Assembly (NCBI GenBank): GCA_903813345.2
Contig: CAIIXF020000011.1
Span: 17,529,754 to 17,593,753 of the forward strand
Direction of reading: 5' to 3'
DNA length: 64,000 nucleotides
Source of the DNA: Owenia fusiformis
Taxonomy: Eukaryota > Annelida > Polychaeta > Sabellida > Oweniidae
Position 1 is the first letter of the stretch; the number at the start of each line of letters is the position of its first letter. Below the pieces are notes generated by a model that ran no database searches, was not told where the DNA came from, and saw nothing but the letters and a program-made list of their open reading frames with translations. The position numbers were made by a program, and so were the translations under genes. Of this stretch, positions 9,381 through 41,409 are shown piece after piece.

Positions 9381-9857
9381 CAAGGACTTACAGGGTGTCC
9401 CAGAACTCATGAGAATTTTCTGAGAGGCATGGGTGATTTTTCTTCAAATTTGGTACACTTATTGAACACACTTTGGGGAATAACTGACATGAATTTCAGG
9501 CACATATCTTTTATATTTCCGAATTTATTGACATTTGAATTCTACATCGCCACAAACCCCGGAGTTATCGGGAAAATACAACAGTTGATGTCACATTTTG
9601 TCAATTTTATACAAATTCTACTATAAAACCAACGTTTTTTGTATAAGCTTAGTACAGCATTTTTCTCATATTGATGATGCACTTTGATAAAACGATATAT
9701 AAACTTTGATGGAGACCCAACACCCAATACATCAACAGATTGTACATTTGGTTTGCTGAAAGATCATAATGGCATGTTCCTGAGGGACTGAGAGAAATAT
9801 CGCCATTTGCTGGCCAATATGATCTTGCATATTGACATGAGCTCCCATTTGGAAGAC
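9381..9857. repeat. Possible repeat remnant beginning ACAGGGTGTCCCAGAA
   Basis: The start, ACAGGGTGTCCCAGAA at about 9388, resembles the terminal motif of common invertebrate DNA transposons. I could not find the matching inverted end, possibly because the LINE inserted downstream. No coding capacity is seen. Confidence 0.25.
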
Positions 9858-12800: not shown

Positions 12801-12908
12801 AAACCTGTGTTCTTTGACTTTGTAATAAGCCTCAAACATTATGTGAACGTGGCAAATTATAATAATACCTGTGAAGAATGGAAATACATATATGAAAACA
12901 TAGACTAA
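9807..12908 (+). CDS. LINE ORF2 reverse transcriptase, N-terminally truncated
   Basis: The open frame is 1033 codons. The LINE-derived part starts around residue 18; the first residues come from flanking DNA. What remains of the endonuclease is its last strand (SPDHLGTQI, the SDH position). An RT follows with motif A FLDFQKAFDSVEW (Asp 401), motif B-like GVRQGDPLAGILF and motif C YADD at 501-504. A C-terminal knuckle C-X2-C-X7-H-X4-C lies at about 921-937. There is no internal stop or frameshift, so the copy is fairly young. It cannot transpose by itself because the endonuclease is gone. The family (L1/Tx1-like) is judged from motif style. Confidence 0.85.
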   Translation: MLANMILHIDMSSHLEDNASSDIITAPSPDHLGTQITLKSKDYKRKGSGFWKLNTSHLQNEEFKEKMITTIEEIKEESKDLADPRIKWDFMKMKIRESCIKYSKEKAKLKREEEKRLIVSADLAQIQVDREPNEANINELKSIKIKLELIQEHKTKGHIIRSKAKWYQDGERSTKYFFDLEKNQSSNKVVSKITKEDGNLISEPKEILEEQKIFYEKLYSSRFNEDQNTRINNTFFENDIPKISVNDKLKCEQLMSETECIKVLKTFKKAKTPGTDGLPAEFYITFWNNIKIELINSLNFALVNGELSTSQRRGIISLIPKKTKDRTKLANWRPISLLNTDYKLMTKVFAQRLRNILPTIIDPDQTGYVKNRFLGTNVRLLKDIMKYTDEANIPGLLLFLDFQKAFDSVEWYFIERILEAFGFGDKFIQYFKCIYNKNESCILNNGQTSNYFRIQRGVRQGDPLAGILFILVMEILAVSIRKNENIEGIDIKGEKVKISLYADDLTVILRNQKSIDELMKTMNDFENSSGLKINKNKSELMWIRSNKTKQDNYKEIKKTNEVTALGYCFTYSNETSIRNNITKKIDKIKSKLNIWTRRNLTLEGKILLAKAQGISQITNIATVDNIPEKYIKEIDTIISDFVWGHKPAKIKKTTMIGNICDGGLKMPDFRTLDTALKVSWIKRLTSEEGGKWKIIPHFYLKEVGGNLIFESNYKLETTKLKNIPAFYNSILKGWEEVRGDRKPISSEEVLNQLLWNNQHILIAGKSSFNNKLSAEGVNQIRDIRNTENRFMSKQELQTQYRVTLNDLEYNGLISAIPKEWKHLLKENQKAPEIPTKFPLNPQSITCKAAYSILNKRNTELPTAIGKIKQYIGEEETKDYYLLPRQMTKDKYLQEFQFKILHNILVCGEKLFIMKIDESAICPYCDDVHTINHMFLNCNVTKALWADFQVFVSKYNYNIALSNKDILYGHKPKDDKYFNFNTLILIMKHCIYKHFLKKTKPVFFDFVISLKHYVNVANYNNTCEEWKYIYENID

Positions 12909-19298: not shown

Positions 19299-20555
19299 AT
19301 GAACTCCTTTCTGAAAGGGAATATGCTGTCAAGTACCAGAATATTTTGCTTAAAGGGAATAAAGTGCCTTAAGGATATGCTTAAAAGAATGAGACCAACG
19401 GCCAACACAAGGACATCAACTCTGAAAATGTATATCATTCAACAAAAACTATCTAGTTTTTTTCACCCAATATGTGCATGTCTCATAATACTGTTCACCA
19501 TATGTGGGTTTATTTGGATAACTTATCTATACAAAAAAGAAACGATTGAAACATTCAGTAAAGATCCACACCATTTGGATCCAACACGTTTGTTTCAAAC
19601 GAGCATGACAGAAAATGTTAATGTTAAAATCATCAATACTTTGGAAAGACAGGAGGGAGAGGACAGACAATACAATAGTTCTGAAATTCATTATACATCT
19701 AAAACTAATGGATATTCAGCAGACAGTTTTACAAGACAAACTAATGCTGACGTTAGGATGGCAAAACGACCAGAAGTTATCAACATTGGTATACAGAAAT
19801 GTGGAACGGGAGCACTTAATGCATACTTAAACATCCATCCAAATCTAAAGGTTATGAAAACTGAGGTCCACTTTTTTGACAAGCTTATCAATCACAAACG
19901 ACCATTTAAAGAAGAGTTGAAAAGATATATCAAGATGCTCCCAAGGGCGTTCCCAAATGAAACTATCTTTGAGAAAACCCCTGCATATTTTGATTTGGCT
20001 GACCCTTATGACCTCCACAGAATGAACCCCGCATTGAAGCTGATTTTACTGGTTTGTGACCCTGTAAGGAGAGCAGTATCTGCCTATGTGCACAATAAAG
20101 CACATGGAAGGTATTCAAAAGATAAATCATATGAAGATATCATATTTGATAAGGATGGTTACATTAATACAACCGAAGAGGTTATAATAAGAAGTAGATA
20201 TGATAAACCACTGGAAAGATACTTGAAATACTTCCCAAGGAGTCAATTTCTTATTATGGAAAACACATTTTTAATGAGCCAGCCAACATTGGCCATGCAA
20301 GAAATTGAGAAGTTTTTAGGTTTAAAAAAATTCTATACTAACGAGACATTTTATTTTCATAAGTCTGTTGGTTACTATTGTATTAATCCCTCTATTCAGC
20401 GAGACAATGCAGGGTGTTTGGGAAGAAATAAATACAGATTTCATCCTTATGTAAGTGAAGAAAACATTTTAAAACTGAAGCATTTTTTTCAACCGATCAA
20501 TGACAACTTCATGAAATTGGCAGGTAAAAAATTTCCATCCTTAATGTATTTTTAA
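19299..20555 (+). CDS. Heparan sulfate 3-O-sulfotransferase-like, single exon
   Basis: A 418-residue type II membrane protein of the Golgi sulfotransferase family. Enzymes of this family move sulfate from PAPS to glucosamine residues of heparan sulfate. A short cytosolic tail is followed by a membrane anchor at about 54-78, a stem, then the catalytic domain from about 155. The 5'-phosphosulfate-binding loop is IGIQKCGTGAL (Lys 167). The proposed catalytic base lies in EVHFFD (Glu 189), and EKTPAYF and the paired cysteines of GYYC...GCLG are present. In the 3'-phosphate-binding motif the family's RDP/RNP Arg is Cys 253 (VCDPVRRAVSAY), which is odd and may lower PAPS affinity or mark a divergent paralogue. 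It is nested in intron 5 of the minus-strand CIP2A-like gene. The first ATG was chosen; Met 9 is also possible. Confidence 0.88.
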   Translation: MNSFLKGNMLSSTRIFCLKGIKCLKDMLKRMRPTANTRTSTLKMYIIQQKLSSFFHPICACLIILFTICGFIWITYLYKKETIETFSKDPHHLDPTRLFQTSMTENVNVKIINTLERQEGEDRQYNSSEIHYTSKTNGYSADSFTRQTNADVRMAKRPEVINIGIQKCGTGALNAYLNIHPNLKVMKTEVHFFDKLINHKRPFKEELKRYIKMLPRAFPNETIFEKTPAYFDLADPYDLHRMNPALKLILLVCDPVRRAVSAYVHNKAHGRYSKDKSYEDIIFDKDGYINTTEEVIIRSRYDKPLERYLKYFPRSQFLIMENTFLMSQPTLAMQEIEKFLGLKKFYTNETFYFHKSVGYYCINPSIQRDNAGCLGRNKYRFHPYVSEENILKLKHFFQPINDNFMKLAGKKFPSLMYF

Positions 20556-24761: not shown

Positions 24762-24953
24762 GTAGTGTTATGACTCAAGGGAACAGACACAATCATAAAA
24801 AACCATAACAGTTATTTACATACATAATTAATTATTAACCCTGTACTGCCTGAACCTATGACCCTTCTTGCACTATGACATTGAATATTCATTTTACTTA
24901 CCGTTGACCTAACATCTTAAACATTCATAAGGCACTGGCCATTTACAATAAAA

Positions 24954-24960
24954 TATATAA
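24954..24960 (+). promoter_or_regulatory. LTR TATA box
   Basis: TATATAA followed by GGAACGGGAG, placed mid-LTR as expected for the retroelement promoter. The same box lies at 41198-41204 in the 3' LTR. Confidence 0.65.
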
Positions 24961-25052
24961 GGAACGGGAGCTGGTCTCTAGAGAGTTCTCGAGGTAGCCA
25001 GGCAGTACAGGGATCTAATCTGTATATTGATATCACATTAATTTTACAACGA

Positions 25053-25070
25053 AATAAAAAGATAAATAAA
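25053..25070 (+). terminator. LTR polyadenylation signals
   Basis: Two AATAAA hexamers (25053-25058, 25065-25070) lie downstream of the TATA box, so the R region spans them. The functional copies would be those in the 3' LTR at 41297-41314. Confidence 0.6.
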
Positions 25071-25137
25071 GAGATAGAAATTATTTATTGATTTAAATCC
25101 TGAGTTGGTTGATAAGTATTTCGAGTAGGAAACAAGA

Positions 25138-25163
25138 TTGTAATCACCAAAAAGTGATTACAA
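25138..25163 (+). other. Perfect hairpin at the LTR 3' end
   Basis: Ten-base arms TTGTAATCAC and GTGATTACAA with a 6-nt loop end two bases before the LTR boundary, directly beside the primer-binding site. The hairpin is repeated in the 3' LTR at 41382-41407. Confidence 0.8.
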
Positions 25164-25166
25164 CAT

Positions 25167-25184
25167 TGGTGCCGTTGCCAGCCG
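25167..25184 (+). promoter_or_regulatory. tRNA primer-binding site
   Basis: TGGTGCCGTTGCCAGCCG starts one base after the LTR and begins with the TGG that pairs with a tRNA CCA end. I do not assign the tRNA. Confidence 0.75.
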
Positions 25185-25307
25185 AAACCTAAGGTTTAAT
25201 ATTTTCTATATCACAACAAATCAATTGAAAAATACAAAATTAATCAAGACTTTCAATCTTCAAATTCAAATAAATTAACAAACAGATAAAGATTAGATCC
25301 CTCTTGC

Positions 25308-26405
25308 ATGTACAGACGAATTAACGGGAGATTGAATAGACAACATCCAGACATGGCGGATGAAATGAATGATCAATTATTAGCGCGCCTTCAGGCGCTG
25401 GAAATGAATCAGGAACAAGGACCTCGCGCAGCTTCGGTCACGCGACCAATGATTTTTTCACACTCTTCTTCAGTAAGTAACCCACGCTCGTGGATTGACA
25501 AATATCAGCTTTATGCTCAAACACAACGATGGGACGCACAGGGCACGTGCGACTACCTGAAAATGTTTTTGAGTGGCATTGCTGAGATTTGGTTTGACAA
25601 TTTAGAGGAAGAAACAAAACAAAATTGGGACGCCCTACGCGCGGCCTTTGTTCAAAAATTTATAGAATCCACTCCAAAGTGGTCTCTCGAAAGCAAACTA
25701 TTGCAACGCGTGCATCAAGCTGGAGAACCCATTGACGCATATCTTAATGATGTGTCTCTCCAATGTTCGCGTCTTGAAATAGGTGACGGAGAACACATAC
25801 GCATATTAATTCGCGGCCTGTCACCTAAAATGAGAAGTCATGTACTGAGTCACTCTCCCGTTACCGTCGCCGATGTGGAACGCCTTGCAAAACTTCATGA
25901 AAGTATCTCATCAGAGGACAGAGTGCCCAAATCTATTAATGCCATCGTCCCTGACAACCAATTGAAAACCCTAATGGACAAAATGGAAGAACAACGTGGA
26001 ATGTTGGAGGAAATGTCCGACAGGATAAGGAGGAACGAAAGGAGACCTCCACGGGACCTGTACAATGGCCGCACGAGTACAGGTAGACCCTACTGCACAA
26101 ATTGTCATCAGGTAGGTCATCTTAACGTAGTATGTCGAAGGCCAACATTTGATCCTAATCCCAATGGTCGAGGTAGACGATTTTCTCCTAGACCATCACA
26201 AAGCAATAACTCCTTCAGAGGTCGCCAAATGCAATCAGATCGTCCATGGTATCAAGATAATAGACGGGTCCACTTTCAAGGTCAAAATACCTTTCAAAAT
26301 CAAAATAATCAGAGATCCTTCCCACAAGATCGTCGAAATGATAGATACCCCGCTCCTCGATCTCCACAATCCTCAGGGCCCAGCAGACCGAATCATTTAA
26401 ACTAA
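25308..26405 (+). CDS. gag: Gag polyprotein
   Basis: 365 residues forming the structural protein of the intracellular particle. A region typical of retrotransposon Gag capsid (about 50-200) includes RSWIDKYQLYAQTQRW and a WFDNLEE...W.ALRAAFVQKF stretch. A coiled-coil-like Met/Glu-rich segment lies near 220-240. A single CCHC zinc knuckle C-X2-C-X4-H-X4-C lies at 263-276. A basic, Arg/Gln/Asn-rich nucleocapsid tail follows to the end. The first ATG is at 25308; Met 16 (ACATGG context) is a plausible alternative. The last sense codons form a slippery heptamer, so a fraction of ribosomes continues into pol with almost all of Gag retained. Confidence 0.92.
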   Translation: MYRRINGRLNRQHPDMADEMNDQLLARLQALEMNQEQGPRAASVTRPMIFSHSSSVSNPRSWIDKYQLYAQTQRWDAQGTCDYLKMFLSGIAEIWFDNLEEETKQNWDALRAAFVQKFIESTPKWSLESKLLQRVHQAGEPIDAYLNDVSLQCSRLEIGDGEHIRILIRGLSPKMRSHVLSHSPVTVADVERLAKLHESISSEDRVPKSINAIVPDNQLKTLMDKMEEQRGMLEEMSDRIRRNERRPPRDLYNGRTSTGRPYCTNCHQVGHLNVVCRRPTFDPNPNGRGRRFSPRPSQSNNSFRGRQMQSDRPWYQDNRRVHFQGQNTFQNQNNQRSFPQDRRNDRYPAPRSPQSSGPSRPNHLN

Positions 26406-26438
26406 TAACTCCTGCAGATACCGAGGTCCATGCAGGAG
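26396..26438 (+). promoter_or_regulatory. Programmed -1 ribosomal frameshift signal
   Basis: The slippery heptamer TTTAAAC (26396-26402) is correctly phased as T TTA AAC in the gag frame and is followed at once by the gag stop TAA (26403-26405). After a 6-nt spacer comes an 8-bp perfect stem: CTCCTGCA 26409-26416 with TGCAGGAG 26431-26438, loop 14 nt. The -1 frame is open from here through pol, whose own first ATG is only at 26462. Heptamer, spacing and stem all match the classical -1 frameshift layout. Confidence 0.88.
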
Positions 26439-29400
26439 CTGATTTTCAAAACCCTCAACATATGTATGCTATTTCTGGGTTACACTCATATGATGATCTG
26501 GATGTACAAGACTCAAACTCGTGTTCGAGCGAGACATTGTCTTTAGAGAATTTGAATGATGCTCAATCATTTGGGGATCAAAGTAGGTCTTGCCCCCGGG
26601 CAACCCCCCCATTGAGCATGAATCCTTACTGTGCCACAATATCGTCCATTGGCGATGTGGTTGATGAACTTGGCATGACCATCGCTGAAACATGTTCGGG
26701 TGTCAGCAACGGCTCTCATAGTTCAGATAAACGGTCGGCATTCGCAATGACTCCTAACGGAGCTGGGGACCAAAGTAGGCTTCGCCCCCGGGCAGCCACC
26801 CCATTCAATCTCGTATGCAAATCATCATCTGACCAATGTAAACCAGGGGAGCTTCCTCCATCTGAAAAAGAACAAGAAAATGAAATTAACAATTCTGACG
26901 ACGTCACATTCGACGAATATATACCATCGGAAAATCGGGCCCCAACATATGAATACCCACCTCCTGAAACTATTCCCCAGAATAATCATGCAGATCGGCT
27001 AGAACCCACAGTTAATCTACTCAAGGCCCCATACCCCAACCATGTACAATCAGACCACAACTATGCATGCCAAACCAATGACAACTTTGTTCTTTTCAAC
27101 GAGGCTTGTGCAGAGGAAACGATCGAAAATGCAAACAATAACCACATAAATCACAATGTTAACAACGAACATGAAACAATATCTCATTCCAATCAACATT
27201 CATTCTCTGTCAATATGGAACCTATCTTCCACGATAATATAATACGGGTCAAACTATTGGGTCAACATTGCTACGCCTTACTTGACAGTGGCGCAACAAT
27301 AAGTGGAATTAATAAAGATTGGTTCGAAAAATTCCCCTGGGCTCAAAACGACCTTCAAAAATCTGATTGTGGGGGAGTGGAAATAGCAAACGGAACTTCC
27401 ATGAAAATCACAGGCCTCATTAAACTACCCATCATAATAGGTCAAACAACGACAGCAGTTGAATTCCACATAATTGACAATTTAGCTCACCCTGTGATTC
27501 TGGGTACCAACTTTTTAACGGAACACCAAGCAGTAGTAGATTTCTGTAAAAACACTTTAAAATACTCCGTTCCCCGTTCCACTGACATCATTGCCGGAAC
27601 AAAAGTGACCATACCCGCTAGATCGGAAGTAGTCCTAACTCTTAACCTCAAGAGAAAAATGCCTGATAATGTACTAGGCATATGCTCACAGCCAGAAAGT
27701 GCCGCAAAAAGACCCCTGCTAATGGCAATTTCATTATCAAAAACATCAAATCAAATGGTCCAAACCAGGCTAGTAAATGCCACTACGGTGGACCTCACAA
27801 TACAAAACAATGAAAGAATAGGAAAGTTTGAGTGCATTGATTCCAAGGCTAAAATCATTCCCCTTGATCTTTATACCTCTAAGGGGGAAAGGAAATATCA
27901 AACCGGTACTTCAGGTCACACTGAAAATAAACAAACAAACCCTGATTTGCAATATGGTAACACTCAATTCATTAATCAACAATACGATGGTTTAAGTGCA
28001 AGACCTTTGGAGATAAATGCCATAAACTCCTTGAACCCTGAGGCCGTACCAACAAAGCAAACATCCGAGACTCTAACAGACAGGTCAAACTGGTCTATTC
28101 ACTCAGAATTAGATTTCAAAGATTCAATACTTTCTGAAAATCAAAAATTGGAACTTACCTCCGTTTTAGAAAAGAATGTGGAAGCATTCTCCTCGCCAGG
28201 AAATGAATTGGGATTCACGGATTTAATTGAACATGAAATCAATTTGAAACCCAATGCGAAGATTTTCAGACAGAGACCATATCCATGCTCCCCTGCAAAA
28301 AGAGCCCTTATAACAACTGAGGTAAATAAACTATTAGACATGGGAGTAGTCCAACCCAGTAAATCAGCATGGAGCGCCCCAATAGTCCTGATCAAAAAGG
28401 GTGAAAAGGTTAGATTATGTGTTGATTGGAGGGGCCTCAATTCAATGACTCAATTCGACGCGTACAGGATGCCAGATTTACAAGAATTACTTGATAGTAT
28501 GGCCCAAACAAAAGGCCGTTACTGGTCGTGCCTCGATATGTTTAAAGCATACTTCCAAGTAAAACTCGCCCCTCAATCTAGGGAACTTACAGCTTTCTCG
28601 ACTCACGATGGGCTATTCGAATTTACACGTTGTGGACAAGGGCTTGTGGGGTCACCTAGTACATTTGTTCGTTTGATGGACCAATTGTTCAGGGGCTTAC
28701 AATATCAGAATCTATATATCTACCTAGATGACCTCATCCTGTTCTCCCCCACATGGGATCATCATCTTGCCTTAATTAACGAAACACTGTCCAGGATTAA
28801 AAAGGCAGGCCTAAAAATATCACTATCAAAATGTCAATGGGGTAAGGACGAAGTACTCTATCTAGGGCACATTCTATCTGAACATGGCTATAAACCAGAT
28901 CCAGCCAAATGCAAAATGGTACGTGATTTCCCTACCCCTAATTCAGTGAAATCAGTAAGAATGTTTCTTGGACTGTCCGGATATTATCGGAGATTCCTCA
29001 AAGATTACTCGAGAATTTCACGGCCTCTCACAGAACTGACCAAGAAAGATATCGAGTTCGTCTGGGGACCAGAACAACAACAAGCCTTAGACACACTCAA
29101 GGCAGGTATTTGTGAACATGCCATGCTACTCTACCCTGATTTTTCTCTTCCTTTCATCCTGGAAACAGATGCATGTAACAAGGGTCTAGGTGCGTGCCTA
29201 ACTCAAGAAATCGATGGAAAGGAGAAAGCCATTTCGTTCAGTGGACGAGCTTTGACTCCCACAGAAGCAAAATACGCCACCATTGACCTAGAACTACTCG
29301 CCATTGTGTACGGAGTCAAGAAATTCAGACACTACCTAGAGGTATCCGAATTCATCATCAGAACAGATCACGCTCCCTTGAAATTTCTGATCAATACAAA

Positions 29401-31924
29401 GCAATTGAGCGACTCCAAAAGAGCGAGATGGATATTGTTTTTGTCACATTTTAGATACACATTAGAGGTCAGGAGCGGTAAATTAAATGCGAATGCAGAT
29501 TTTGCCTCCAGAGTAGAACACACTCCAGTGCAGGATTCAGATCTACAGCAGGAACACCACGAGGAGATACGTAGAATGGTAATGCCAGAATGTCAGCCAC
29601 AAATTCACGCTGCGATAGGGAAAACCCCACTATCCCTAGGTAATTTACCCTTCCAGCCTCCCGGCCCAATATCAAAATTGCAGCCAGATGATTTGAAATT
29701 CTTCGATCCACTAGCTAGGTACACAGACCAACAGGAAACGTCAACACAAGCAAACACACCCACGCTAGAAGACCTGTGGGACACGTACGAAACCGACCCC
29801 GACTCAACAAAACAGTATCATACCCAAAGTCACTCAGCCAAACAAACTACGGATGTTGATATGGACCAAACAACTTCAGAAGTATTGAACCCCATACCGA
29901 GCGATATTATCATGGAAACCACAGACACAGAGGCCACAGCAAACCCCGTTCACAAAATTACTACGGATAGGCCTACGCAAAGAACGACAAATCTGAATAA
30001 CCATTCGACGGCTTCGACAAGTGAAACCGCTAACGAACCGGGAACTCCACCCGCGCCTGACGAACAGCAAGATGAAATGGCAAATATCCAGGAAACTGAC
30101 ACGGTAAATAGCCAAGCAGACCTGTACACCAATACACCCGAGATGGAGGAATTAAGGCAGCTACAACTCACCGACCCTTTCTGTAGCCCATTAATTCAAT
30201 ATTTACATACAAATGTACTACCAGATAACAACAGCGAGGCCAGAAAATTGTTGTTACAGGCAGATAGCTTCCTTATGATTGACAACGTCCTGTATCACAA
30301 ACATTACGACCATCACTCCCACGCCATGATAAATAGGCTAGTTATACCCAATTGTCTAGTTGACACCATTCTCTTCGCATCCCATGATCAGATTCTTAGC
30401 GGACATCTAGGCATCCTTAAAACAAAAGCAAGGGTATTACAAAAGTATTACTGGCCGAAACAATCACAAGATGTTGAAAATTGGGTGAAATCATGCGTAC
30501 CATGTAATTCACGCAGAATTCGGAGAAAACACGAACAACCAATTCAGCCTATTCCAGCGCCATCGGCAGTCTGGGAAATGATTAGTATTGACACATTAGG
30601 GCCCCTGACAACAACACATGACAAAAACAGGTTCATTATATGTATCTCTGATCATTTATCCAAATACTCCATAGCACTAGCAACCCCAGATCAACAGGCT
30701 GCAACAGTGGCGACATTACTCTTTCACCGAGTAATATGTATTTTTGGCTGCCCAGGGGTCATAATATCCGACAACGGGACTAATTACGTTAGTCAACTCG
30801 TCCAAGAGCTATGCAAAATGTTCCTCATTGATAAAAGACAAACTCTGCCGTATAACCCCCGTGCAAACGGCCTCATTGAAGCAGGGAACAAAATCCTCGC
30901 AAAAATGCTCTCCATATATGTGTCACAACACCACAAAGATTGGGACGTCTATCTACCTTCCGTCGTGTTTGCCTACAATGCATCGGTTCACGCCTCCACC
31001 CAGATCATACCATCGATGCTTGTATTTGGTAGGGTACCAAAACTCCCTATCGACACCCAATACAAAATACCCTCAGACGCCCCCAGAGACATACAAGATC
31101 ATCTCAAAAGCACCCTCAGCCAAGTAGCAGAATGCGAACATATGGCCACAAAAATACTACAAAGCCAGAAGGAGAAAATGAAAGCAGACCATGACCGCCG
31201 GACAAAACATAAGTTCATTAAATTCCAAGTAGGCGATTGTGTGTACTTAAAGGTCCCTCCCAAAAATAAGGCACTGTCACACAAACTAAATTTCACACAT
31301 CAAGGTCCATTCACAATAGTGCAAATAACAAACAATGAGCTAAATGCTACATTACGCAGACTAAGCAATGGTACACTATACCCCAAATCTGTACATGTGG
31401 GCAGGCTCAGTAAAGCGGAGTACAGATGGCCCCGCCCAGAACCGCCAGATAATTACGAACCACATACAGAAACCCCCGGGCCAGACACAGTTGCCCATAA
31501 TCTCGAAGATGCACAACCCCCCGCTCAGACAGACAAATATCCAATCGGGAATACCAAAGCGACCTCCGAGCCGAAGACCGACAATCAAAAAGAGACATCT
31601 CAGAAACTCACAAAGAACGACTTGCAGGGAACACCAATTCCTACACCAATACCTACACCTCAGGACATCGACAGTGAGAGTGACGAGGATACAGAAGACG
31701 AATTCTACGAGATCGCCGACATATTAAAGTCAAGGAAACTCAAGAATGGCACTAAACAATATTTTGTCAGCTGGAAGAACTATGATCCTTCCCACAACAG
31801 CTGGGTCGATTTCAACGATCTCTCAGAAGACATGAAGTTATGGGCTTTACAAGAATTTCAAGATCCCAAGAAAAAAGGCAAACCAAGAAAAAATACAAAC
31901 GCCGACACTAAATTAAAATTATAA
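26402..31924 (+). CDS. pol: Pol: protease, RT, RNase H, integrase, chromodomain
   Basis: Open in the -1 frame from the slippery site. From the first ATG (26462) it is 1820 residues; by frameshift it adds about 1840 to Gag. Positions below count from that ATG. Residues 1-250 are a polar linker with a short repeat (GDQSR...PRA twice). The aspartic protease has DSGA at 275-278. RT has CVDWRGLN, CLDMFKAYF and YLDD at 754-757; the usual LPFGL block is RCGQGLVGSPSTF. RNase H has LETDA and TDHAPLKF. Integrase has a zinc finger H-X6-H-X29-C-X2-C and a D,D35E core (SIDTLGP, ISDNGTNY, GLIEAGN), then a GPF module. A chromodomain follows at about 1747-1800 (YEIADIL, YFVSWKNYDP, SWVDF). All catalytic residues are present. 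A chromodomain can steer integration toward modified histone tails. Confidence 0.93.
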   Translation, partial: LITPADTEVHAGADFQNPQHMYAISGLHSYDDLDVQDSNSCSSETLSLENLNDAQSFGDQSRSCPRATPPLSMNPYCATISSIGDVVDELGMTIAETCSGVSNGSHSSDKRSAFAMTPNGAGDQSRLRPRAATPFNLVCKSSSDQCKPGELPPSEKEQENEINNSDDVTFDEYIPSENRAPTYEYPPPETIPQNNHADRLEPTVNLLKAPYPNHVQSDHNYACQTNDNFVLFNEACAEETIENANNNHINHNVNNEHETISHSNQHSFSVNMEPIFHDNIIRVKLLGQHCYALLDSGATISGINKDWFEKFPWAQNDLQKSDCGGVEIANGTSMKITGLIKLPIIIGQTTTAVEFHIIDNLAHPVILGTNFLTEHQAVVDFCKNTLKYSVPRSTDIIAGTKVTIPARSEVVLTLNLKRKMPDNVLGICSQPESAAKRPLLMAISLSKTSNQMVQTRLVNATTVDLTIQNNERIGKFECIDSKAKIIPLDLYTSKGERKYQTGTSGHTENKQTNPDLQYGNTQFINQQYDGLSARPLEINAINSLNPEAVPTKQTSETLTDRSNWSIHSELDFKDSILSENQKLELTSVLEKNVEAFSSPGNELGFTDLIEHEINLKPNAKIFRQRPYPCSPAKRALITTEVNKLLDMGVVQPSKSAWSAPIVLIKKGEKVRLCVDWRGLNSMTQFDAYRMPDLQELLDSMAQTKGRYWSCLDMFKAYFQVKLAPQSRELTAFSTHDGLFEFTRCGQGLVGSPSTFVRLMDQLFRGLQYQNLYIYLDDLILFSPTWDHHLALINETLSRIKKAGLKISLSKCQWGKDEVLYLGHILSEHGYKPDPAKCKMVRDFPTPNSVKSVRMFLGLSGYYRRFLKDYSRISRPLTELTKKDIEFVWGPEQQQALDTLKAGICEHAMLLYPDFSLPFILETDACNKGLGACLTQEIDGKEKAISFSGRALTPTEAKYATIDLELLAIVYGVKKFRHYLEVSEFIIRTDHAPLKFLINTKQLSDSKRARWILFLSHFRYTLEVRSGKLNANADFASRVEHTPVQDSDLQQEHHEEIRRMVMPECQPQIHAAIGKTPLSLGNLPFQPPGPISKLQPDDLKFFDPLARYTDQQETSTQANTPTLEDLWDTYETDPDSTKQYHTQSHSAKQTTDVDMDQTTSEVLNPIPSDIIMETTDTEATANPVHKITTDRPTQRTTNLNNHSTASTSETANEPGTPPAPDEQQDEMANIQETDTVNSQADLYTNTPEMEELRQLQLTDPFCSPLIQYLHTNVLPDNNSEARKLLLQADSFLMIDNVLYHKHYDHHSHAMINRLVIPNCLVDTILFASHDQILSGHLGILKTKARVLQKYYWPKQSQDVENWVKSCVPCNSRRIRRKHEQPIQPIPAPSAVWEMISIDTLGPLTTTHDKNRFIICISDHLSKYSIALATPDQQAATVATLLFHRVICIFGCPGVIISDNGTNYVSQLVQELCKMFLIDKRQTLPYNPRANGLIEAGNKILAKMLSIYVSQHHKDWDVYLPSVVFAYNASVHASTQIIPSMLVFGRVPKLPIDTQYKIPSDAPRDIQDHLKSTLSQVAECEHMATKILQSQKEKMKADHDRRTKHKFIKFQVGDCVYLKVPPKNKALSHKLNFTHQGPFTIVQITNNELNATLRRLSNGTLYPKSVHVGRLSKAEYRWPRPEPPDNYEPHTETPGPDTVAHNLEDAQPPAQTDKYPIGNTKATSEPKTDNQKETSQKLTKNDLQGTPIPTPIPTPQDIDSESDEDTEDEFYEIADILKSRKLKNGTKQYFVSWKNYDPSHNSWVDFNDLSEDMKLWALQEFQDPKKKGKPRKNTNADTKLKL

Positions 31925-33767
31925 CGTTGACCTTAAAATGTTATATTCTCCCTCAGTCTAAGACCAATATAATCAAAGCTGTACCAATCGCAAACCAAAG
32001 TATTAACATATTATGCACGCGCGCCATACCATCCAACACAATTCACATTCTCCATTCTATCTTATCCCCATAACATTCACATACAAATATTTGAATGTAA
32101 TAGAATCAAAATTAATACTTATAAGAAACACCCCTGTTATCAAGTCGCAAGTCACGTTAGCGATAATCAACCTGATATTGTGGAATATTACCTAATGATA
32201 CCTATAAACCAACAAATATTATTCGGGTCACAATACATTTCGGATCTGCACGGATTCAACAACACTTAGGTAAGAACTAATCTCGTACTTCATTACTATT
32301 TAACCAAGACCGCAATTCAGATAATTCACACTCAAAGCGGCTTGTTAAATCCATATTTAATACCAAATTATTTAATCCATATGAATACTTAAAGAGGGCA
32401 ATATATATTTCAAGTTTACTATTAAGCCTCTAGAATACAATTGATTAGCAAAAATAAGTTCTTCCTAATAAGCAATTTGTATCATGCCTAGAATCACTCT
32501 CATCTTTGGAAACCAGGGTTCTATACCTTTGACTGGTTTACAATATAATTTCATTAGAAGATCAAACCTTCTCGCTGATACCTATGAACATATATGCAAA
32601 GAGAAATTGGCGGAAGCCACCATCATAGTCCCAGATCACATCAGATTAAGCGAATTTCACCTTTTTCGGACCAGATACAAATCCTACACTGAAAATGGTT
32701 TTGTCAGATATAACCTGGGCATTATTGAAAGGCTACAAAAAGAATGTAAAGACATAACAGATTTCTTTGAATTTAGAGATATACCTTCCACGCTTCAGTC
32801 AAAATGTCTCGTAACAATCCAAAACCAAGTGACATTCCCTGATATTAGTAATCTACCCCTTCCAATATCCCTCCAACAACGGTTGAAATTCGCGGATTTT
32901 TAAATTTATTTCTCATTTCAACATTCAAAAATCCACATGCAACAATAAGCTTCTTTCTCTATTCGAAAAAAAAATGGCTTAAAATATACAAACAAAGAAA
33001 AAATTGATAATGGACTCATTTTAACCAGGGAATATTTAGAATGCTCCACAAGTAACTCATGGGTCGAAGATAAACGGTATTAAAAGGCCCATATAGATAC
33101 AAATAAACTTGAAAATGACTCTCACACTTCAGTAAAGACGCATCGGTACTCGTACATCGCTTTGTTCTTGAACAAGGACCTACTTCACCTAGCCATAATT
33201 GCATGTAATCTCGACGCAATCAAACTCATCTTTCTATTCCCTAGTTCAAACTATTTCTAGTCAAACGGCTGCTCAACTGTCCCTCAAAAATAATTCAATA
33301 TTGACATGAAACAAAACAAAATGAAAACAAAAAGAAAAAAAAAAGAAAGAAAATAGAATGAGTAAATGATAAGGAAAAGAACCTCTTTATATGCAGATAT
33401 ATTTAGAATTTTAATAAACGATATATATCCCTGTTCGCGGGTCTAAAAAGTGAATAATGCGCATATAAAATGTAATAGGTGGCCACCTTCATATCATATG
33501 GATGCTTCATATAATTATCTACTTTCCTTCAAAAGGACAGATTCACTCTCCGCGCGGAGAATTATAATAAACAATTATTTAAACCCAAGCATCCTAAGAG
33601 AAACGAGGTTAAAACAAAACAGCAAACAAAAGAGACCGGCCATTAGATATACAGGGCCCGATATTTAAAATCTACTTTATTGCCCAAGCTAAAAACCTGC
33701 GCGAAAAATCACTGCGTCCCTATCGACCCATTGTGTCAAATATTTAAGGAATAAAATACGAACATGC

Positions 33768-33801
<34 letters not shown>

Positions 33802-34055
33802 TGAGCAGCCTACACGATATTGAAAATCCCAGGCCCACAAGGTCAAAAAGAAGAAACTCTATAATAAACAAAAAAGCCTAAAATCTAACCTCATGACGCA
33901 ACGCCAGCATCACGTGACCACAGTTCATGCAAGACTCATATATTTATTGCCCAACCCAAGCCACTTCAACATTGCTCCTCGGGATCACCACCAAGACACA
34001 TCTAAGCCACTAACACATTAATTCTTTGAATCAACACCAAGACACGTCACGCACC
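31925..34055 (+). other. 2.1-kb pol-env spacer
   Basis: It contains the orphan ORF at 32484-32903, a donor-like CTTAG|GTAAGA at 32269/32270, a (CA)n run at about 33773-33799, and short direct repeats CACCAAGACAC just before env. The region may hold leader exons and the env splice acceptor, but I cannot fix one with confidence. Confidence 0.45.
32484..32903 (+). CDS. Orphan 139-residue ORF between pol and env
   Basis: It starts at a genuine ATG (ATCATGCC) and has no recognised family. The protein is globular-looking, mixed-charge, with two Cys (residues about 38 and 107) and no signal peptide, membrane segment or zinc motif. It begins PRITLIFGNQGSIPLTGLQY. Upstream, TTCTTCCTAATAAG could serve as a splice acceptor. 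It is one of the longer ATG-started ORFs outside the named genes of this element and occupies the place where complex retroviruses carry accessory genes. Function unknown; it could also be chance. Confidence 0.5.
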   Translation: MPRITLIFGNQGSIPLTGLQYNFIRRSNLLADTYEHICKEKLAEATIIVPDHIRLSEFHLFRTRYKSYTENGFVRYNLGIIERLQKECKDITDFFEFRDIPSTLQSKCLVTIQNQVTFPDISNLPLPISLQQRLKFADF

Positions 34056-36632
34056 ATGGACACAGCAATGGACAAATTGGTAAGTCTCTGTTTAATTTTA
34101 CTTACTACTACAAGTACTCATTGCCTAGACCTACCACCCTCTATGCAAATTAGCCAAGACACTTCTATGCCTACTAGTCTTTTAAATAGATTGAATTTTG
34201 GAGTTATAATTAAGCGACAAGGACTTATGACACCGTCAAACGACGATTATTGGCAACATAGTTTCGGGCTCAAAAGATTTTCGCTTCCAAATATACTACG
34301 AAGAACTCCTAAAGTCAGATGCAATACTCTTTTTCACAAAGAATTCTATAATGACTGCGAACAAATAGCATCCCTTTTAATTGATTATGCACCGCTCATC
34401 CAACATACGGCGGACAAAATTCATTCCTGTACTTTGGATATCGATAATCTACTCCCAAAAACTCACAAAGTCACTCTTAACACTAATCGACGACACCGTC
34501 GAGGATTATTAAACTTCGGCAGTGAAATACTTTCAGCGCTAATTGGAACACCTTCACGCAAAGAAATATCAAATGTTTGGAGACATCTCCAAGAAATTGA
34601 AAAGGTCATTAACTCTACTTCTGAAAACACGGTACAATACAGACAACACCTCTCCTCATACATGATCACCAATAATAAGCGACTAGATAACTTGGACCAT
34701 GCAACTGCCAATAACCACGCAGCATTTCAAAACATTTATAATACCATAGCAAATTTAACTTCAGTTCTAGCCTCGCAGGGCCGCTACTATGATAAACTCT
34801 CATTGGCCTTACAAATAAACTCTGAATTACTAAAAATGATCCTTAGATTCTGTGTGCTTCAACTTTCAGCCCTCCAGCAACATGAAATTGAATGTAATCA
34901 ACATCTAAGTGCAATATCCCAATTAGTACAAGGTAGTCTGCCACCCCATTTAATTTCTCCCTCAACACTGAAATTGGCCCTGTCAGATATCCAATCTACC
35001 CTTCGCTCCTCACATCCCAATTTTCGAATATCCTACTTGGATCCCCATTATTACTACAAAAATAGTAACCCCACCTTTCTGGTCACCGAGAATACAATAA
35101 CAATTTCGATTAGAGTCGCCATTTCAAGCTCCGATTATCTCTTCAATCTATATCAGATGCACCACATGCATATGCCAATTCCGCTCGATTTAAGTAATAA
35201 ACGGACCCCAAACCACTCCACGTCAATTTCAGACCTTTCCCCTTATTTCGCCATATCTCATGATTTAGATTTCTACATAGAACTAAATTTGCAACAATTT
35301 TCTGACTGCACCGGATCTCACCTACTACATTGTACAACCGTCTTCAATCTAAAACAAATTTCTACTCAGCCCTCGTGTAACTCAGCACTATTCTTTAATG
35401 ATCCCATTCAAATAAATAAACTATGCTCGTTTATGTACCATATTAACGCCCCACAATCAGATCAAATAATCACGCTAACGCCAACAAAATCGCTTATACA
35501 TTCTAATGATAAATTCTGGACCATTAGATGTGATGATTCAATGCCAAAAAGGGTTCCAGCGTGCAGGGGGGTCTGTATTATAACCAGGAAATGCCATTGC
35601 TCCTTGGAAGGTCAAAATTTCATCTTACCCAAAACCCTCTCAAGCTGCAATCACACCTCAAAGTCATTCGTTTCAAGGGCACACCACTTCAATTTAGCCT
35701 TTCTACAAACTTTCGACTACAATTTAACTTCTTTAAAGAAACTGTCAGCATCATCCCACTTGACTTCAGATCTATCAGTACAACTACCCAATCTTACTTT
35801 CTACTCTGCGGACTGGAATAAGGTCTTAATGACTTCCAAAACAACTTCATTTAAAATGTCACGACTAACCGAAGCCCTTAAAAATACGGATGTACCATTT
35901 TTGTCACCTATCGATCAAGTACAACATGTCCAAACGGACTTATCAGAATTAAGGGAACCACTCAGTTGGCTATCAGACAAATCACTATCATCCATTACCC
36001 TGATCTCGGCCATCTTGGCTCTAGTATCGTTTGTAATGTCATCTTATTTATTCTGTCGTATAGTATGTTGTGTTGCACTCATACCGCAACCAGCCAAGGC
36101 GGCCACATTGTTCCTACCCACGGATCACCCAGTATTCGCACCAACAGTTCCCCTCCCACAGCAAGCAGCCTTCCCTTCTAATATTCTGTCTATTTTAAGC
36201 TTTATACTATCCTTGTATATAACATACAAACTCTTCAAAAAGCTGACTGGTATCATAAGGGCCTTCCGTAGATACTTCTGCCTCAGGAATATCGCCTCAT
36301 GTGAGCTGAAACTATTGATGATGTGCCCCGCCAACTATTGTATTGTATCGGTGACCAACATTCCACTGGATTACGTAAGTAACATCAAAAGCTCTACTGG
36401 AGGACCCGTAGACTGTAGCGTAAGTACACATGTACTCTGGCCCCACCTTGATATAGATTGGGCGGACATGACTATTCAAACTCTTGATCCAAATCTTGCA
36501 ATCCAACTTCCTACTTCAATTCGAGTCCCACTCACTACGATATCCAGTCTCAACCAGGTCCTGAAACAAAAGCCAATATTCAGAATTATTATCAAGATTG
36601 ATGGCCAACACTTATACGTACCGCACTTATAA
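34056..36632 (+). CDS. env: Env-like class I-type glycoprotein
   Basis: 858 residues from an ATG in strong context (CACCATGG). A signal peptide lies at about 6-24. The basic cleavage site RRHRR is at 145-149, followed directly by a Gly/Leu/Phe-rich segment (GLLNFGSEILSALIG) placed like the fusion peptide of errantivirus Env and baculovirus F proteins. A helical region with heptad-like spacing follows, then a long ectodomain with many Cys and N-glycosylation sequons. A membrane anchor lies at about 646-676. Unusually, a second hydrophobic segment (about 709-728) and a 130-residue C-terminal domain follow the anchor. The ORF is uninterrupted. A splice donor lies eight codons in (34080). The role is inferred from architecture; sequence identity to known Env is low. 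Confidence 0.82.
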   Translation: MDTAMDKLVSLCLILLTTTSTHCLDLPPSMQISQDTSMPTSLLNRLNFGVIIKRQGLMTPSNDDYWQHSFGLKRFSLPNILRRTPKVRCNTLFHKEFYNDCEQIASLLIDYAPLIQHTADKIHSCTLDIDNLLPKTHKVTLNTNRRHRRGLLNFGSEILSALIGTPSRKEISNVWRHLQEIEKVINSTSENTVQYRQHLSSYMITNNKRLDNLDHATANNHAAFQNIYNTIANLTSVLASQGRYYDKLSLALQINSELLKMILRFCVLQLSALQQHEIECNQHLSAISQLVQGSLPPHLISPSTLKLALSDIQSTLRSSHPNFRISYLDPHYYYKNSNPTFLVTENTITISIRVAISSSDYLFNLYQMHHMHMPIPLDLSNKRTPNHSTSISDLSPYFAISHDLDFYIELNLQQFSDCTGSHLLHCTTVFNLKQISTQPSCNSALFFNDPIQINKLCSFMYHINAPQSDQIITLTPTKSLIHSNDKFWTIRCDDSMPKRVPACRGVCIITRKCHCSLEGQNFILPKTLSSCNHTSKSFVSRAHHFNLAFLQTFDYNLTSLKKLSASSHLTSDLSVQLPNLTFYSADWNKVLMTSKTTSFKMSRLTEALKNTDVPFLSPIDQVQHVQTDLSELREPLSWLSDKSLSSITLISAILALVSFVMSSYLFCRIVCCVALIPQPAKAATLFLPTDHPVFAPTVPLPQQAAFPSNILSILSFILSLYITYKLFKKLTGIIRAFRRYFCLRNIASCELKLLMMCPANYCIVSVTNIPLDYVSNIKSSTGGPVDCSVSTHVLWPHLDIDWADMTIQTLDPNLAIQLPTSIRVPLTTISSLNQVLKQKPIFRIIIKIDGQHLYVPHL
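34080..34085 (+). promoter_or_regulatory. Splice donor inside env
   Basis: TTG|GTAAGT is a near-perfect donor after codon 8 of env (phase 0). It would pair with the acceptor ending at 36826. Confidence 0.7.
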
Positions 36633-36809
36633 TTGTAAAGTAGACATTTACATATATTTAGGGGACAAACATCACAAAATAAGCATATAGAGAGGACCTG
36701 CGTTCCGACAAAATTTGATATCTACAACATAATGCCGAAACAACACATTTCATGCCCCGTTTCAAGTGAACATATTTATATATCAAACTAAAACAAAGTC
36801 GTTCACATG

Positions 36810-36826
36810 GTTTATTCTCTTTACAG
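36810..36826 (+). promoter_or_regulatory. Splice acceptor downstream of env
   Basis: A pyrimidine-rich tract ending TTCTCTTTACAG, with a branch-point-like CTAAAAC about 38 nt upstream. The exon it opens (36827) is in phase 0, matching the donor at 34080. Confidence 0.72.
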
Positions 36827-37459
36827 TGCACAATACTGAATGCTGCTTTGCCCGAGGAAGTCTGGGACGAGCTCGCCCAGCTACAATCCCAAGACGAAAA
36901 TCAGACATCTCAAGTTGAGTTGCCCGAGCTGTGGCCAGCACCTTCAACATCAGATAACCCTCCCATCCTCGAGGCTTTTACGACAGTTAACCAGGGAGCC
37001 ACTCAGTGGGCCTCAACATCAGATGGCCCTCCTATCCTTAACCAAGAGGCGATAAGAGATGATCTAAAACTAACACAGCAGAACGACCAAGAAGCGGCGG
37101 TACAACTTCTTGAGCTGGGGTCAGTTACCTCACTGGACCCATTGGACGAGCTGATGAGGGACCTGGACTCGTCCCTGGAGGCCACAAACCGTATACCAAT
37201 CGATGGGGCGTGGGATAGTACCCCCACTATCTCCATCCCCTTCGGAACCCCAGGGACGAGAGTGACTGCAATGTGCACTTTGTGCACAAACCCCACAATT
37301 CGTCAACGGGTAATAACCAACGCGGCCCCAACCCCTGGACAAACGCAGACGGCGGTACTCTTCGCAGTACACCCTGGTACCAACTACCAGGCACTGTACT
37401 GTGAGGACTGCCGGTACATCACCATGTTTCTATTTTCCCATCTGCATAAATTCACTTAA
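36827..37459 (+). CDS. Accessory protein, second exon (acidic, CxxC...CxxC)
   Basis: An open exon of 210 codons with no ATG between the preceding in-frame stop (36767) and its conserved start, so it needs splicing. Joining the donor after 34079 to 36827 keeps frame and predicts a product of about 218 residues sharing only the first eight with Env, without the signal peptide. The N-terminal two thirds are acidic, rich in Glu/Asp/Gln/Pro, with a short internal repeat (STSDNPPIL / STSDGPPIL). The C-terminal part has two CxxC pairs (CTLC near 158, CEDC near 200 of the spliced product), suggesting a zinc ribbon. The layout recalls retroviral regulatory proteins made from env-spanning splicing (Tat, Tax and Rem types); function is inference and no homologue is recognised. 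Confidence 0.68.
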   Translation, partial: CTILNAALPEEVWDELAQLQSQDENQTSQVELPELWPAPSTSDNPPILEAFTTVNQGATQWASTSDGPPILNQEAIRDDLKLTQQNDQEAAVQLLELGSVTSLDPLDELMRDLDSSLEATNRIPIDGAWDSTPTISIPFGTPGTRVTAMCTLCTNPTIRQRVITNAAPTPGQTQTAVLFAVHPGTNYQALYCEDCRYITMFLFSHLHKFT

Positions 37460-39657
37460 CTTCACAAACCCTACAGTCATATGGCCCAATCTCCCAAAAA
37501 GTAATCAGTTCAACATCGTCATAGAAATCATGCATAATCACGTCAATGAATTTTTCAAGTCACCCCTCAAAATTAAAATTAATCATCCCAATTTGCATTG
37601 CATTACACAGCTTATACCATTCCAGTTTTCATGCATAAAACCTATCAAATCCAGTTTAATGATGCCCCTTACTTCCTGAGATACATTCGCTAAATCGGTC
37701 ATAAATAGCTACGAATATTGCCGAGGGCCATTTTGACCTGTACTTCCTGATGTTTACGTCCTACTTACGACTCACTTTCTTCTTTGAAATTGATAAGACA
37801 ATAGGGCCTTCCTCTGGAAATTGTTCGCCGCTCTTTCAAGAACACAACTCTTTATATTCATTCTAGCTTCATTTGTACTTCAATGCAACGTATAGTTGAT
37901 CCTTCGCTACTTTACACTGTTCTTACTGCTTAAATTAAATCAAATAGGATAAATTCATCTGACCTATGTACTGTTACACCCACCAATTCGCGTTGTTATC
38001 ACCTTTACAATGTGCTAAACTTATACCGCACTCGATAAGTACAACTTATCGCGTGTCTCTTCAAAACTTACACAGTCCAGAGCCGAAATTATGCACTGTT
38101 AGAAAGTTCCGACCCGAACTATTCTGTTCATAAGTATTTGTTACAATGTGTCTGACACACCCCATACATCGTGATGTTCATCTCCCGTATATTTTCCAGG
38201 ATCAATTCCGATATTCTTATTTTTCAATGGCTTATGTTGGTCCCCTGTGGAATTCCCTAGTATCAAATTGTTACACTAAAGCGATTTTATATTGACCATT
38301 CTAGATACTTTTATTCCGTTCTTCCTGACCCGTTATCTCACTTCTCATTTGCTGGCTCTGGACAAATTTGCTTTACATTAGATTCCATAATTTGCCTTAC
38401 TGGAAACAAGACTCAGGTCAAACGCTCCATAATTTACCGGTTCGAATATCGAAATTTCTTCAACCATATTACGTTATAAAATAGTGCCACTGCAGTTCAT
38501 GCTTTCGGAACCAACAAGGGGCAATATATATACACCTGACTCTTGCTTCATTTTTTGTGTCGGGCAGTTGCAGGCCCCACGGCAAATTATTATCTGGTAA
38601 TACTGTACCACACGCCCATTATTGCAAAATGGGATTACAAATGAATCAACTATTAGTTCGGCTTGGTCTTCCCACCACGTCTGATTATTTTATAATTACA
38701 GCCAATCAGTCAACGGGGCCATACGCGGTGGGAACACCATATTCGTACTTTAGTTCATGCTTTGAGATTCAGCTCAGAGCCATAATGTAAGTTAACTTAA
38801 GCATACGAACTATATTTACATATTATTGTACATACAGAACTAACATATATATTACGAGTTTTAATGCAACAGGAAACGAGTTGAAACTCATATTTTCACT
38901 ACTTAACGTACTATATCTTCACTTCATGCTCAGTTTATGTACCTTATGTCTCCACAATCATGAGTTTATCAGAATGCACGACAACCATAGCTTATTATAT
39001 TTCAAGCATTCTGGGCTTCTAGTTATGAACACCAGTACCCTTAACAGAAATTGTTTATTCTCTTTTAGTGATTCTCGTGATTCTCCTATCGTTGAATTTG
39101 TTTGCCGTTTGTGCATACTGTTAATCTAAATTGTCACTCCATTCGGCAGCAACAAGTTATCATATAATACGTTAGGCGGTATTAAATCTAATCTAACCTC
39201 ATGCCATCTCTTAAGGGTTCCATATGTGAACTGTACGTAAGTCAGTCTATTCTGAAATTATTCGACGTGGTCGTATCATCATTTACATTATGCCACGTGA
39301 TGCAACTTAGGAGCATGCTATTATTCCACTTCTTCAGTATCATGGTCCAATCTATGAGTAGCCAATTATCACTTGGTAGCCTATTACCCTCTTAAACACC
39401 AACTACAACATTTGAAATCACCGAATGTTCAGGGCACCGGGTGTGCACCATACAGACATTGTGCTCAGTGATGCAATATATTAACGGCCATTACCCTCAA
39501 ACACCGGCTTGCAATCAGGACACATAACGCCTTCAGGAAGGAGCGATTTCCGGGCTAGCACGACAGACCATCATCGTGCATGAACGTGCCTTTTCCTGAA
39601 CTCCAACCGAACTCTATAAACGTTATCTTCTACAATTTACGCATGATATGCGTGATG

Positions 39658-39825
39658 AACGACTCGACAAATTTATTGTGCAGGACACGGTTGTAAGAAC
39701 TTTATATATATCAACGACACTACGAATTTATTGTGCAGGGCACGGTCGTAAGAACTATTATATTTATATACGACACTACAAATTTATTGTGCAGGGCACG
39801 GCTGTAAGAACTACTATATATATCA
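39658..39825 (+). repeat. Three-copy repeat in the retroelement 3' region
   Basis: Three units of about 55-62 bp each contain AATTTATTGTGCAGGRCACG and GTAAGAACT. Confidence 0.8.
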
Positions 39826-40333
39826 ATGTACTCAGTCCAGAATACGCCTAAGGATCAATCCCGGATCAATTGCGTTTATCGTATGTACAGCCCTCGACCA
39901 CCACGCTGTACGACACGCAGGAGTCTCTCAGTGATATCCCATAATGAACATTATATCCAGGCGTAAATCCATGAACAATACTAGGACAATTCGTAATGTC
40001 CAGTGTGTATAACCAACGATCATCCAGTTATACGCCACACGGCCGTCCGACAACTTACATCCTCTGCCACAACTAGTTATACGGAACTCTGACACTTACG
40101 TCGTTGTGCATTCCGAGCTCGACGCTATCCATCTGGCGAGTGACTGTCGTCCTATCCCCATTACCACACCGTTCCGGTCCAAATACTGTGTCAGCTAGAA
40201 CTTTACTCATTTGCCATCATGGGTAACATATACGCAGACCACTATCCCTAGTACTGGCTATCAATTATTCCAGAACTGCTCAATGGACTATTCTAATCTG
40301 CAATTATTTCTGTTGCATCACGGGGGCTAGTTT

Positions 40334-40590
40334 TCAATAATAGTATTCACATACTTTACTATTGTTCAATAACAGTGTTCACATACTTTACTGTTACTCA
40401 ATAATAGAGTTCACATACTTTACTGTTATTCAATAATAGTGTTCACATACTTTACTGTTGCTCAATTACAGTGTTCACATACTTTACTGTTATCTAATAA
40501 TAGTGTTCACATACTTTACTGTTGCTCAATAATAGAATTCGCATACTTTACTAATGCTCAATGATAGTGTTCACACATTTTACTGTTGCT
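40334..40590 (+). repeat. Tandem repeat of CAATAATAGTGTTCACATAC units
   Basis: About eight units of 32-36 bp with core TTCACATACTTTACTGTT, ending in an (AT)n run. Confidence 0.85.
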
Positions 40591-41009
40591 ATATATATAT
40601 ATATATATATCCATTGTATTTTATTTGTATATTACCAGAGGTACATGCTGTCTAATATTCCGTAAGGTTATACCATTGAATATCCCACGGGGCTTAGCTT
40701 ATATAAAGATGGCTGCACCCGAGCCCAGTATTTTCTTCTGAATCCAAACCTATTAACACGCCAACTTTGTCTGGAAATTTGTTCCAATCATCTTGGCCCA
40801 TGGTTTATTCAATGGAATAAAAAAAATAACAACTTATTCGCAAGATGAATAAGCTGTAATTATGGAATGTCTCTAAAACTATACATCCATTTCATATATA
40901 TATACTATTACCGGTCACATTCCATTTAATACCATAGGTGTCCACCTCTCTTGGGTCATCTCATGCGCTCCTTGCACACGGGGCCGTGTGCCACCAACGG
41001 GGGGGCGTA

Positions 41010-41409
41010 TGTTATGACTCAAGGGAACAGACACAATCATAAAAAACCATAACAGTTATTTACATACATAATTAATTATTAACCCTGTACTGCCTGAACC
41101 TATGACCCTTCTTGCACTATGACATTGAATATTCATTTTACTTACCGTTGACCTAACATCTTAAACATTCATAAGGCACTGGCCATTTACAATAAAATAT
41201 ATAAGGAACGGGAGCTGGTCTCTAGAGAGTTCTCGAGGTAGCCAGGCAGTACAGGGATCTAATCTGTATATTGATATCACATTAATTTTACAACGAAATA
41301 AAAAGATAAATAAAGAGATAGAAATTATTTATTGATTTAAATCCTGAGTTGGTTGATAAGTATTTCGAGTAGGAAACAAGATTGTAATCACCAAAAAGTG
41401 ATTACAACA
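41010..41409 (+). repeat. 3' LTR
   Basis: 400 bp, apparently identical to the 5' LTR, ending CA at 41409 and followed by the target duplication GTAG. Confidence 0.95.

Follow-up and report, generated by a model that had tools for sequence, protein, structure and literature searches.

Regulatory proteins that share the start of env are known from retroviruses: Tax uses the env ATG, and Rec of human endogenous retrovirus K (HERV-K) and Rem of mouse mammary tumor virus (MMTV) share the env start and reuse env-overlapping sequence. Among insect errantiviruses we know of no fourth gene behind env. The errantiviruses gypsy and ZAM are Ty3-type elements with an env made by splicing, and the passages on errantiviruses in PMC12992720 mention no gene behind it. 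Deltaretroviral Tax and Rex are regulatory proteins encoded behind env and made from spliced mRNA that omits env (PMC3185741), and in HERV-K Rec the env interior is removed (PMC3185809). The Ty3-type element Cer1 of C. elegans can encode an RNA-export factor, the non-structural protein CERV, from a spliced mRNA (PMC10309623). Here we describe a 16.6-kb Ty3-type long terminal repeat (LTR) element of the annelid Owenia fusiformis, located in a 64,000-nucleotide stretch (the window; C11:17529754-17593753, contig CAIIXF020000011.1) of a single 498-Mb genome assembly. Its env is predicted to act as a facultative intron whose removal would yield a small regulatory protein from the env start and a second exon behind env, a reading to which we assign a probability of roughly 0.7.

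The element differs from each of these systems. Tax and Rex are doubly spliced products of a vertebrate retrovirus, whereas the splice in the window is predicted from sequence. Unlike Rec and Rem, the window exon 2 lies wholly behind env. In Cer1, cerv exons 1-3 are in the gag frame with the main open reading frame (ORF) at the env position, and Cer1 has no env to skip (PMC10309623). Captured ORFs behind env are known more generally from giant gypsy-like elements (PMC6431247) and bdelloid ORF3s (PMC5408684), and the passages concerned describe no env-skipping splice logic. None of the literature matches listed describes an accessory gene of Ty3-type elements that is made by skipping env; Chary and Hayashi 2025 (eLife), on metazoan env-carrying elements, may mention such ORFs.

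A predicted spliced gene behind env

The features that make up the proposed gene are as follows (window coordinates).
34056..36632, + strand: env, 858 amino acids (aa), related to P0001 (E 5.6e-23) and to loci with a Baculo_F-matching Env
34056..34079, + strand: exon 1, eight codons in common with env, read from the sequence
34080..34085, + strand: splice donor GTAAGT, which is env codons V-S, just 5' of the signal-peptide core; the same codons occur in the distant locus C244
34080..36826, + strand: predicted facultative intron, almost the whole of env plus 194 nt, based on donor and acceptor conservation
36797..36826, + strand: acceptor block ending TTTATTCTCTTTACAG, 29/30 bases kept in copies c08, c09, and c10
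36827..37459, + strand: exon 2, predicted accessory protein frame of 210 codons with two CxxC pairs, based on open copies and substitution ratios

An earlier sequence-only reading had placed a consensus donor, TTG|GTAAGT, eight codons into env and a strong acceptor just beyond it. The donor is indeed present at 34080, after exactly eight codons (MDTAMDKL) counted from the ATG at 34056 and followed by GTA AGT, and 36826, 194 nt beyond the env stop, is the last base of the acceptor TTCTCTTTACAG. Both junctions are in phase 0, as had been proposed, and the downstream frame comprises 210 codons (36827-37456 plus stop). The statement that this frame lacks its own ATG stands for codons 1-109 and fails at codon 110, an in-frame ATG. 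The acidic character and the two CxxC pairs of the product were likewise recovered: the exon 2 protein has an isoelectric point (pI) of 4.15, with 27 D+E against 9 K+R residues, and its pairs lie at residues 150-153 and 192-195, 38 residues apart.

Splice sites were scored with simple home-made weight matrices, taking the window outside the element as background. The env donor scores 9.3, and only 0.008 donors of that strength are expected in the first 60 nt of env; acceptors as strong as that of the window occur at 0.00042 per nt. As a control we considered 5319 stop codons of the window that lie outside the element on both strands, excluding tandem-repeat stretches, none of which (0/5319) matches the env layout in acceptor strength, nearness, and frame length.

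A DNA search of the same genome located exon 2 in at least ten places, so that all copy counts are lower bounds: seven are 98-100% identical (window included), two 88%, and one, c10, 71%. The donor GTAAGT is identical in all eight copies retaining the env start; c09, which adjoins an inverted LTR, and c10 have no env start in the stretches examined. All ten keep the acceptor (with one inserted base in c10), and the 29/30 bases of the acceptor block hold even for c10, though its exon is only 71% identical. Counted from the first base behind the acceptor, the frame is open in 9/10 copies, the exception being c10, a decayed fragment in which it is broken and interrupted by stops. It has 210 codons in the window, 209 in both c08 and c09, and 207 in c02-c07. 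The sole frame-shifting indel among the nine open copies is the window's own, a small one near the 3' end, because of which its last ~10 residues are unlike those of the others. The env gene is without internal stop or break in 5/8 copies. One internally deleted copy (G000:C308:5918-13985) has lost most of pol but still has its LTR and leader, some of gag, and the small ORF together with env and exon 2, the LTR-leader part being present twice.

The exon 2 frame behaves as a gene and is under selection. The ratio of nonsynonymous to synonymous divergence (dN/dS), which the sequence-only reading had named as a check, is 0.23 between the window and c08 (Fisher p 7.5e-9) and 0.20 between the window and c09 (p 1.4e-10), with substitutions by codon position of 19/9/39 and 18/10/41, respectively. 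Codons 1-109, before the first ATG, are also constrained (0.26 and 0.25 vs. c08 and c09, p 1e-5 and 2.1e-5), and therefore translation starts upstream of the first in-frame ATG. Near-identical copies give ratios below 1 that are not significant (window-c06 0.49, p 0.22; window-c07 0.32, p 0.051), and even the decayed c10, compared with the window in two parts, gives 0.27 and 0.17. For env, dN/dS against c08 is 0.12. Synonymous divergence (dS) between window and c08 is 0.068 in env and 0.30 in exon 2, which suggests that exon 2 was swapped as a block between related elements, as would be expected of a separable gene.

Related env lineages in the same genome

An env protein search of the genome returned 53 places, many of them distant. 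Among these, C244 (L034) forms group A together with the window element and appears to be of the same design. Its env is 32% identical to the window Env, carries stops, and begins MASSSNTDMDQKAQLKFLN, then V-S as GTA AGT; the donor AAC|GTAAGT thus follows codon 19 in phase 0, just ahead of what appears to be the core of the signal peptide. An acceptor lies behind env, ending 53 nt beyond the stop, and is followed by a phase-0 exon of 127 codons with CxxC-36-CxxC. When this exon was aligned locally with those of the window, c08, and c09, respectively 12, 5, and 6 of 2000 shuffles scored at least as high as the real pair, modest evidence for homology with the window exon 2 that is strengthened by the shared position. 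Decayed copies at L055 (C11) and L063 (C8) keep the acceptor. At L055 (C11:16724200-16727600) and just beyond it there are neighboring pieces of the C-terminal part of the accessory exon, apparently in tandem.

We considered 22 distant env loci (L022, L034, L036-L038, L040-L051, and L055-L059, leaving out L039, L052-L054, and others of the 53). An acceptor and open frame follow env in 18 of them, C244 included, with the L055 frame broken after 41 codons; in the scored relatives the acceptors end 7-194 nt beyond the env stop. When eleven loci were scored against the stop control, 0/5319 stops matched for the window, C244, L036, and L050, and 4-58 for the other seven, the group B acceptor being weak on its own (58/5319). 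Fisher's combined p of 1.1e-15 for seven of the eleven scored representatives is optimistic, because acceptors were picked by eye, the representatives were of our choosing, and four misses were excluded.

Groups B and C comprise, among loci with an env 3' end, L036-L038, L040-L044, and L046-L048. In all 11 of these exon 2 begins with TG, the A|TG reading giving the longest frame (63-72 codons in ten loci, 58 in L048), and the exons share a conserved TQT word, (A/S/G)TQT(E/D). A GTGAGT donor preceded by A is located 6-40 nt 5' of the env ATG in 11/13 group B and C loci with an env start (not in L038 and L049), and splicing from this site would create a start codon ATG. Selection tests gave p <= 5.1e-4 in 6/6 pairs of four group B representatives and p < 0.05 in 16/21 pairs of seven representatives of both groups, with dS high or saturated throughout. 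The likeness to complex retroviruses that had been drawn from the window stood in part: the phase of the frame behind env fits that of a donor at the start of env, but sharing of the env ATG is not general, as groups B and C illustrate.

In group D (L050, L051, L056, and L057) the frames are 143-167 codons long, and C2H2-like fingers can be recognized in them by eye. The L056 and L057 exons start with their own ATG at the acceptor, and this pair gives p 1.3e-17 with saturated dS. Pfam Baculo_F matches the Env of L050 (E 4.3e-12) and L056 (E 4.9e-12), the two tested in this group; the window Env has no Baculo_F match above the cutoff and is homologous to the Env of L050/L051 at E about 2e-27. 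One region (G000:C8:13873968-14152900) holds 16 env-related matches within 0.28 Mb, of which 14 share a strand; it resembles a one-stranded graveyard of env elements and is possibly a flamenco-like PIWI-interacting RNA cluster.

Taking these groups together, we lean toward the view, at slightly better than even odds, that several env-bearing Ty3 lineages in this genome resemble complex retroviruses in layout, with a small spliced gene behind env, independent or ancient in origin, and env as a facultative intron. There would be three solutions for the start codon (a shared env ATG, a splice-made ATG, and an own ATG at the acceptor) and three dissimilar protein types (CxxC-CxxC, TQT-motif peptide, and C2H2-like fingers).

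Proposed expression and competing explanations

In the proposed scheme one pre-mRNA would have two fates. Left unspliced in this region it would give Env, and removal of 34080-36826 would join exon 2 to the first eight codons of env. The resulting protein, of ~215 residues, would have no signal peptide and should not be secreted, because in both group A lineages the apparent core of the signal peptide lies beyond the end of exon 1. It would consist of an acidic N-terminal part with short amphipathic segments (judged by eye) and a C-terminal CxxC...CxxC part, a probable zinc fold. The combination of an acidic half with a CxxC half suggests a nuclear regulator of the element, which could be a transcription activator or an RNA-export factor like CERV. 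We infer the splicing event, the choice of this donor, the zinc fold, and the function alike. Target sites for such a regulator were sought as 12-base words shared among the LTR, leader, pre-env region, and 3' stretch; nothing convincing emerged, the shared words being two overlapping inverted ones between LTR and leader and three overlapping ones between the pre-env region and the 3' stretch.

How env itself is reached may differ between groups. No acceptor scoring >=2.5 is located between 33536 and the env ATG in the window, and none scoring 2 within 220 nt before env in C244. TATA-like words lie at -117 in the window and at -93 in C244 (TATAAATA), and together with the missing acceptors they make an internal promoter ahead of env possible in group A. 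An acceptor-like site occurs <=220 nt before the env ATG in 7/9 group B and C loci checked (not L038 and L043), as in insect elements with env spliced from upstream exons (PMC12992720).

Exon 2 could be a real gene whose mRNA uses a donor in the leader or in gag, with the env-start donor minor or unused. We regard this as unlikely, but it has precedents, since in Drosophila the env exon is joined, depending on the subclade, to a leader peptide, to an AU dinucleotide, or to gag (PMC12992720), and exons 1-3 of cerv lie in the gag frame (PMC10309623). Two in-phase gag donors are available to it, TCA|GTAAGT at 25473 (score 6.1) and CAG|GTAGGT at 26112, whose score of 10.2 exceeds the 9.3 of the env donor. 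Against it, the env donor recurs in C244 at the same codons and phase, and the GTGAGT sites <=40 nt before the env ATG in 11/13 group B and C loci make a donor at the env start the recurrent feature. If the frame were translated from unspliced RNA, through reinitiation on the env mRNA or from a start other than AUG, a CTG at frame codon 4 or a TTG at codon 8 could serve. This is very improbable given that the frame opens just 19 codons before the acceptor, that the acceptor block is conserved as DNA (29/30 bases in a 71% copy), and that relatives place their acceptors at 7-194 nt after the env stop. A chance frame with chance splice-like words might explain why the protein search gave no homologues, but barring an alignment artifact the selection test, in which p is as low as 1.4e-10, already contradicts this reading, and 0/5319 random stops match; we attach almost no weight to it.

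The function is less constrained than the existence of the gene. The protein could be made as proposed and yet serve as a host-defense antagonist or as a virion or trafficking factor, a possibility that we hold to be real if distinctly the less probable. The wide variation of sequence and length between groups is arms-race-like and fits such a role, as does the conserved (A/S/G)TQT(E/D) word of groups B and C, which we take to resemble a ligand of dynein light chain LC8. The CxxC or C2H2-like motifs recognized by eye in groups A and D would instead suit nucleic-acid binding.

Several observations weigh against env removal from the env-start donor as the source of a zinc-binding regulator. Besides the two gag sites, pol has another strong phase-0 donor upstream (28322), none of the ten exon 2 copies is a spliced retrocopy, the acceptor being present in all, and 4/22 distant loci have no such exon (L045 and L049, which have lost the env 3' end, and L058 and L059). 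Near the start of env in L038, L050, and L056 no donor was convincing, and L042 and L043 each have a second donor-like site with a score as high as that of the one at the env ATG. The C244 exon is basic (pI 8.6), with a basic linker in place of the acidic part, and hmmsearch between it and the window family gave just 5.2 bits (E 0.00086, one target). Exon 2 had no relative among 5.8 billion proteins with either a single sequence or an alignment, in a word-based search that can miss distant ones, and a Pfam scan returned 0 families at E <= 1. The AlphaFold model of the exon 2 family is unusable, with a predicted local distance difference test score of 29.5, so the zinc fold remains predicted.

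Viral contigs had no match to exon 2, and phmmer of exon 2 against the PDB gave only AlkB-homologue matches (best E 0.031), judged to be due to chance. Homology to Tax, Rec, or Rem was not detected by the Pfam scan or PDB phmmer of exon 2, no direct comparison being made.

The host element and the meaning of the layout

The element that contains env and the 3' frame spans 24766-41409. It is flanked on both sides by a GTAG target duplication, its LTR termini are TG...CA, and the two 400-bp LTRs are without a difference, indicating a recent insertion. The LTR ends, the short target duplication, and gag followed by protease (PR), reverse transcriptase (RT), RNase H (RH), and integrase (IN) in the order PR-RT-RH-IN by Pfam fit a Ty3-type element. 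Genes are ordered gag, pol, a 139-aa ORF, env, and the frame behind env; the features outside the proposed gene are given below.
24766..25165, + strand: 5' LTR, 400 bp, TG...CA, identical to the 3' LTR, with GTAG duplication
25308..26405, + strand: gag ORF, Pfam Retrotrans_gag E 9.6e-11
26345..31924, + strand: pol frame with protease, RT, RNase H, integrase, and C-terminal chromodomain (RVT_1 2.2e-30, Chromo 1.1e-8)
32484..32903, + strand: small ORF of 139 aa between pol and env, no Pfam match above cutoff
33939..33948, + strand: TATA-like TATATTTATT, 117 nt 5' of the env ATG, candidate internal promoter
37460..41009, + strand: 3.5 kb, mostly non-coding, with tandem repeats of 56 bp x3 and 32 bp x8, from the ORF and repeat listing
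41010..41409, + strand: 3' LTR, identical to the 5' LTR

Env has a furin-like RRHRRG site and a transmembrane segment, both judged by eye. The Pol C-terminal chromodomain (Pfam E 1.1e-8) occurs here in an element that also bears env. The 139-aa ORF (32484-32903) has a dN/dS of 0.34 (p 0.012) against c08 and a strong donor, TAG|GTAAGA, upstream of it at 32270; it is perhaps another spliced gene. The stretch from the accessory gene to the 3' LTR (37460-41009) has no ORF >=90 aa wholly inside it, and an enhancer or insulator role for the repeats is possible. Outside the element, the window contains a long reverse-transcriptase ORF at 9807-12908 (RVT_1 7.6e-39, zf-RVT just under cutoff), which would be of the non-LTR type, and a sulfotransferase ORF at 19299-20555.

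The layout would explain how an accessory gene of this kind can be overlooked in annotation, since its 5' end lacks a nearby start codon. Expression of regulatory genes by env removal is taken to be characteristic of complex vertebrate retroviruses. If the proposed layout is true of Ty3-type elements, env-skipping logic would have arisen repeatedly or very early, CERV of Cer1 would gain a broader setting, and an early phase of regulator production and a late phase of Env production would become testable.

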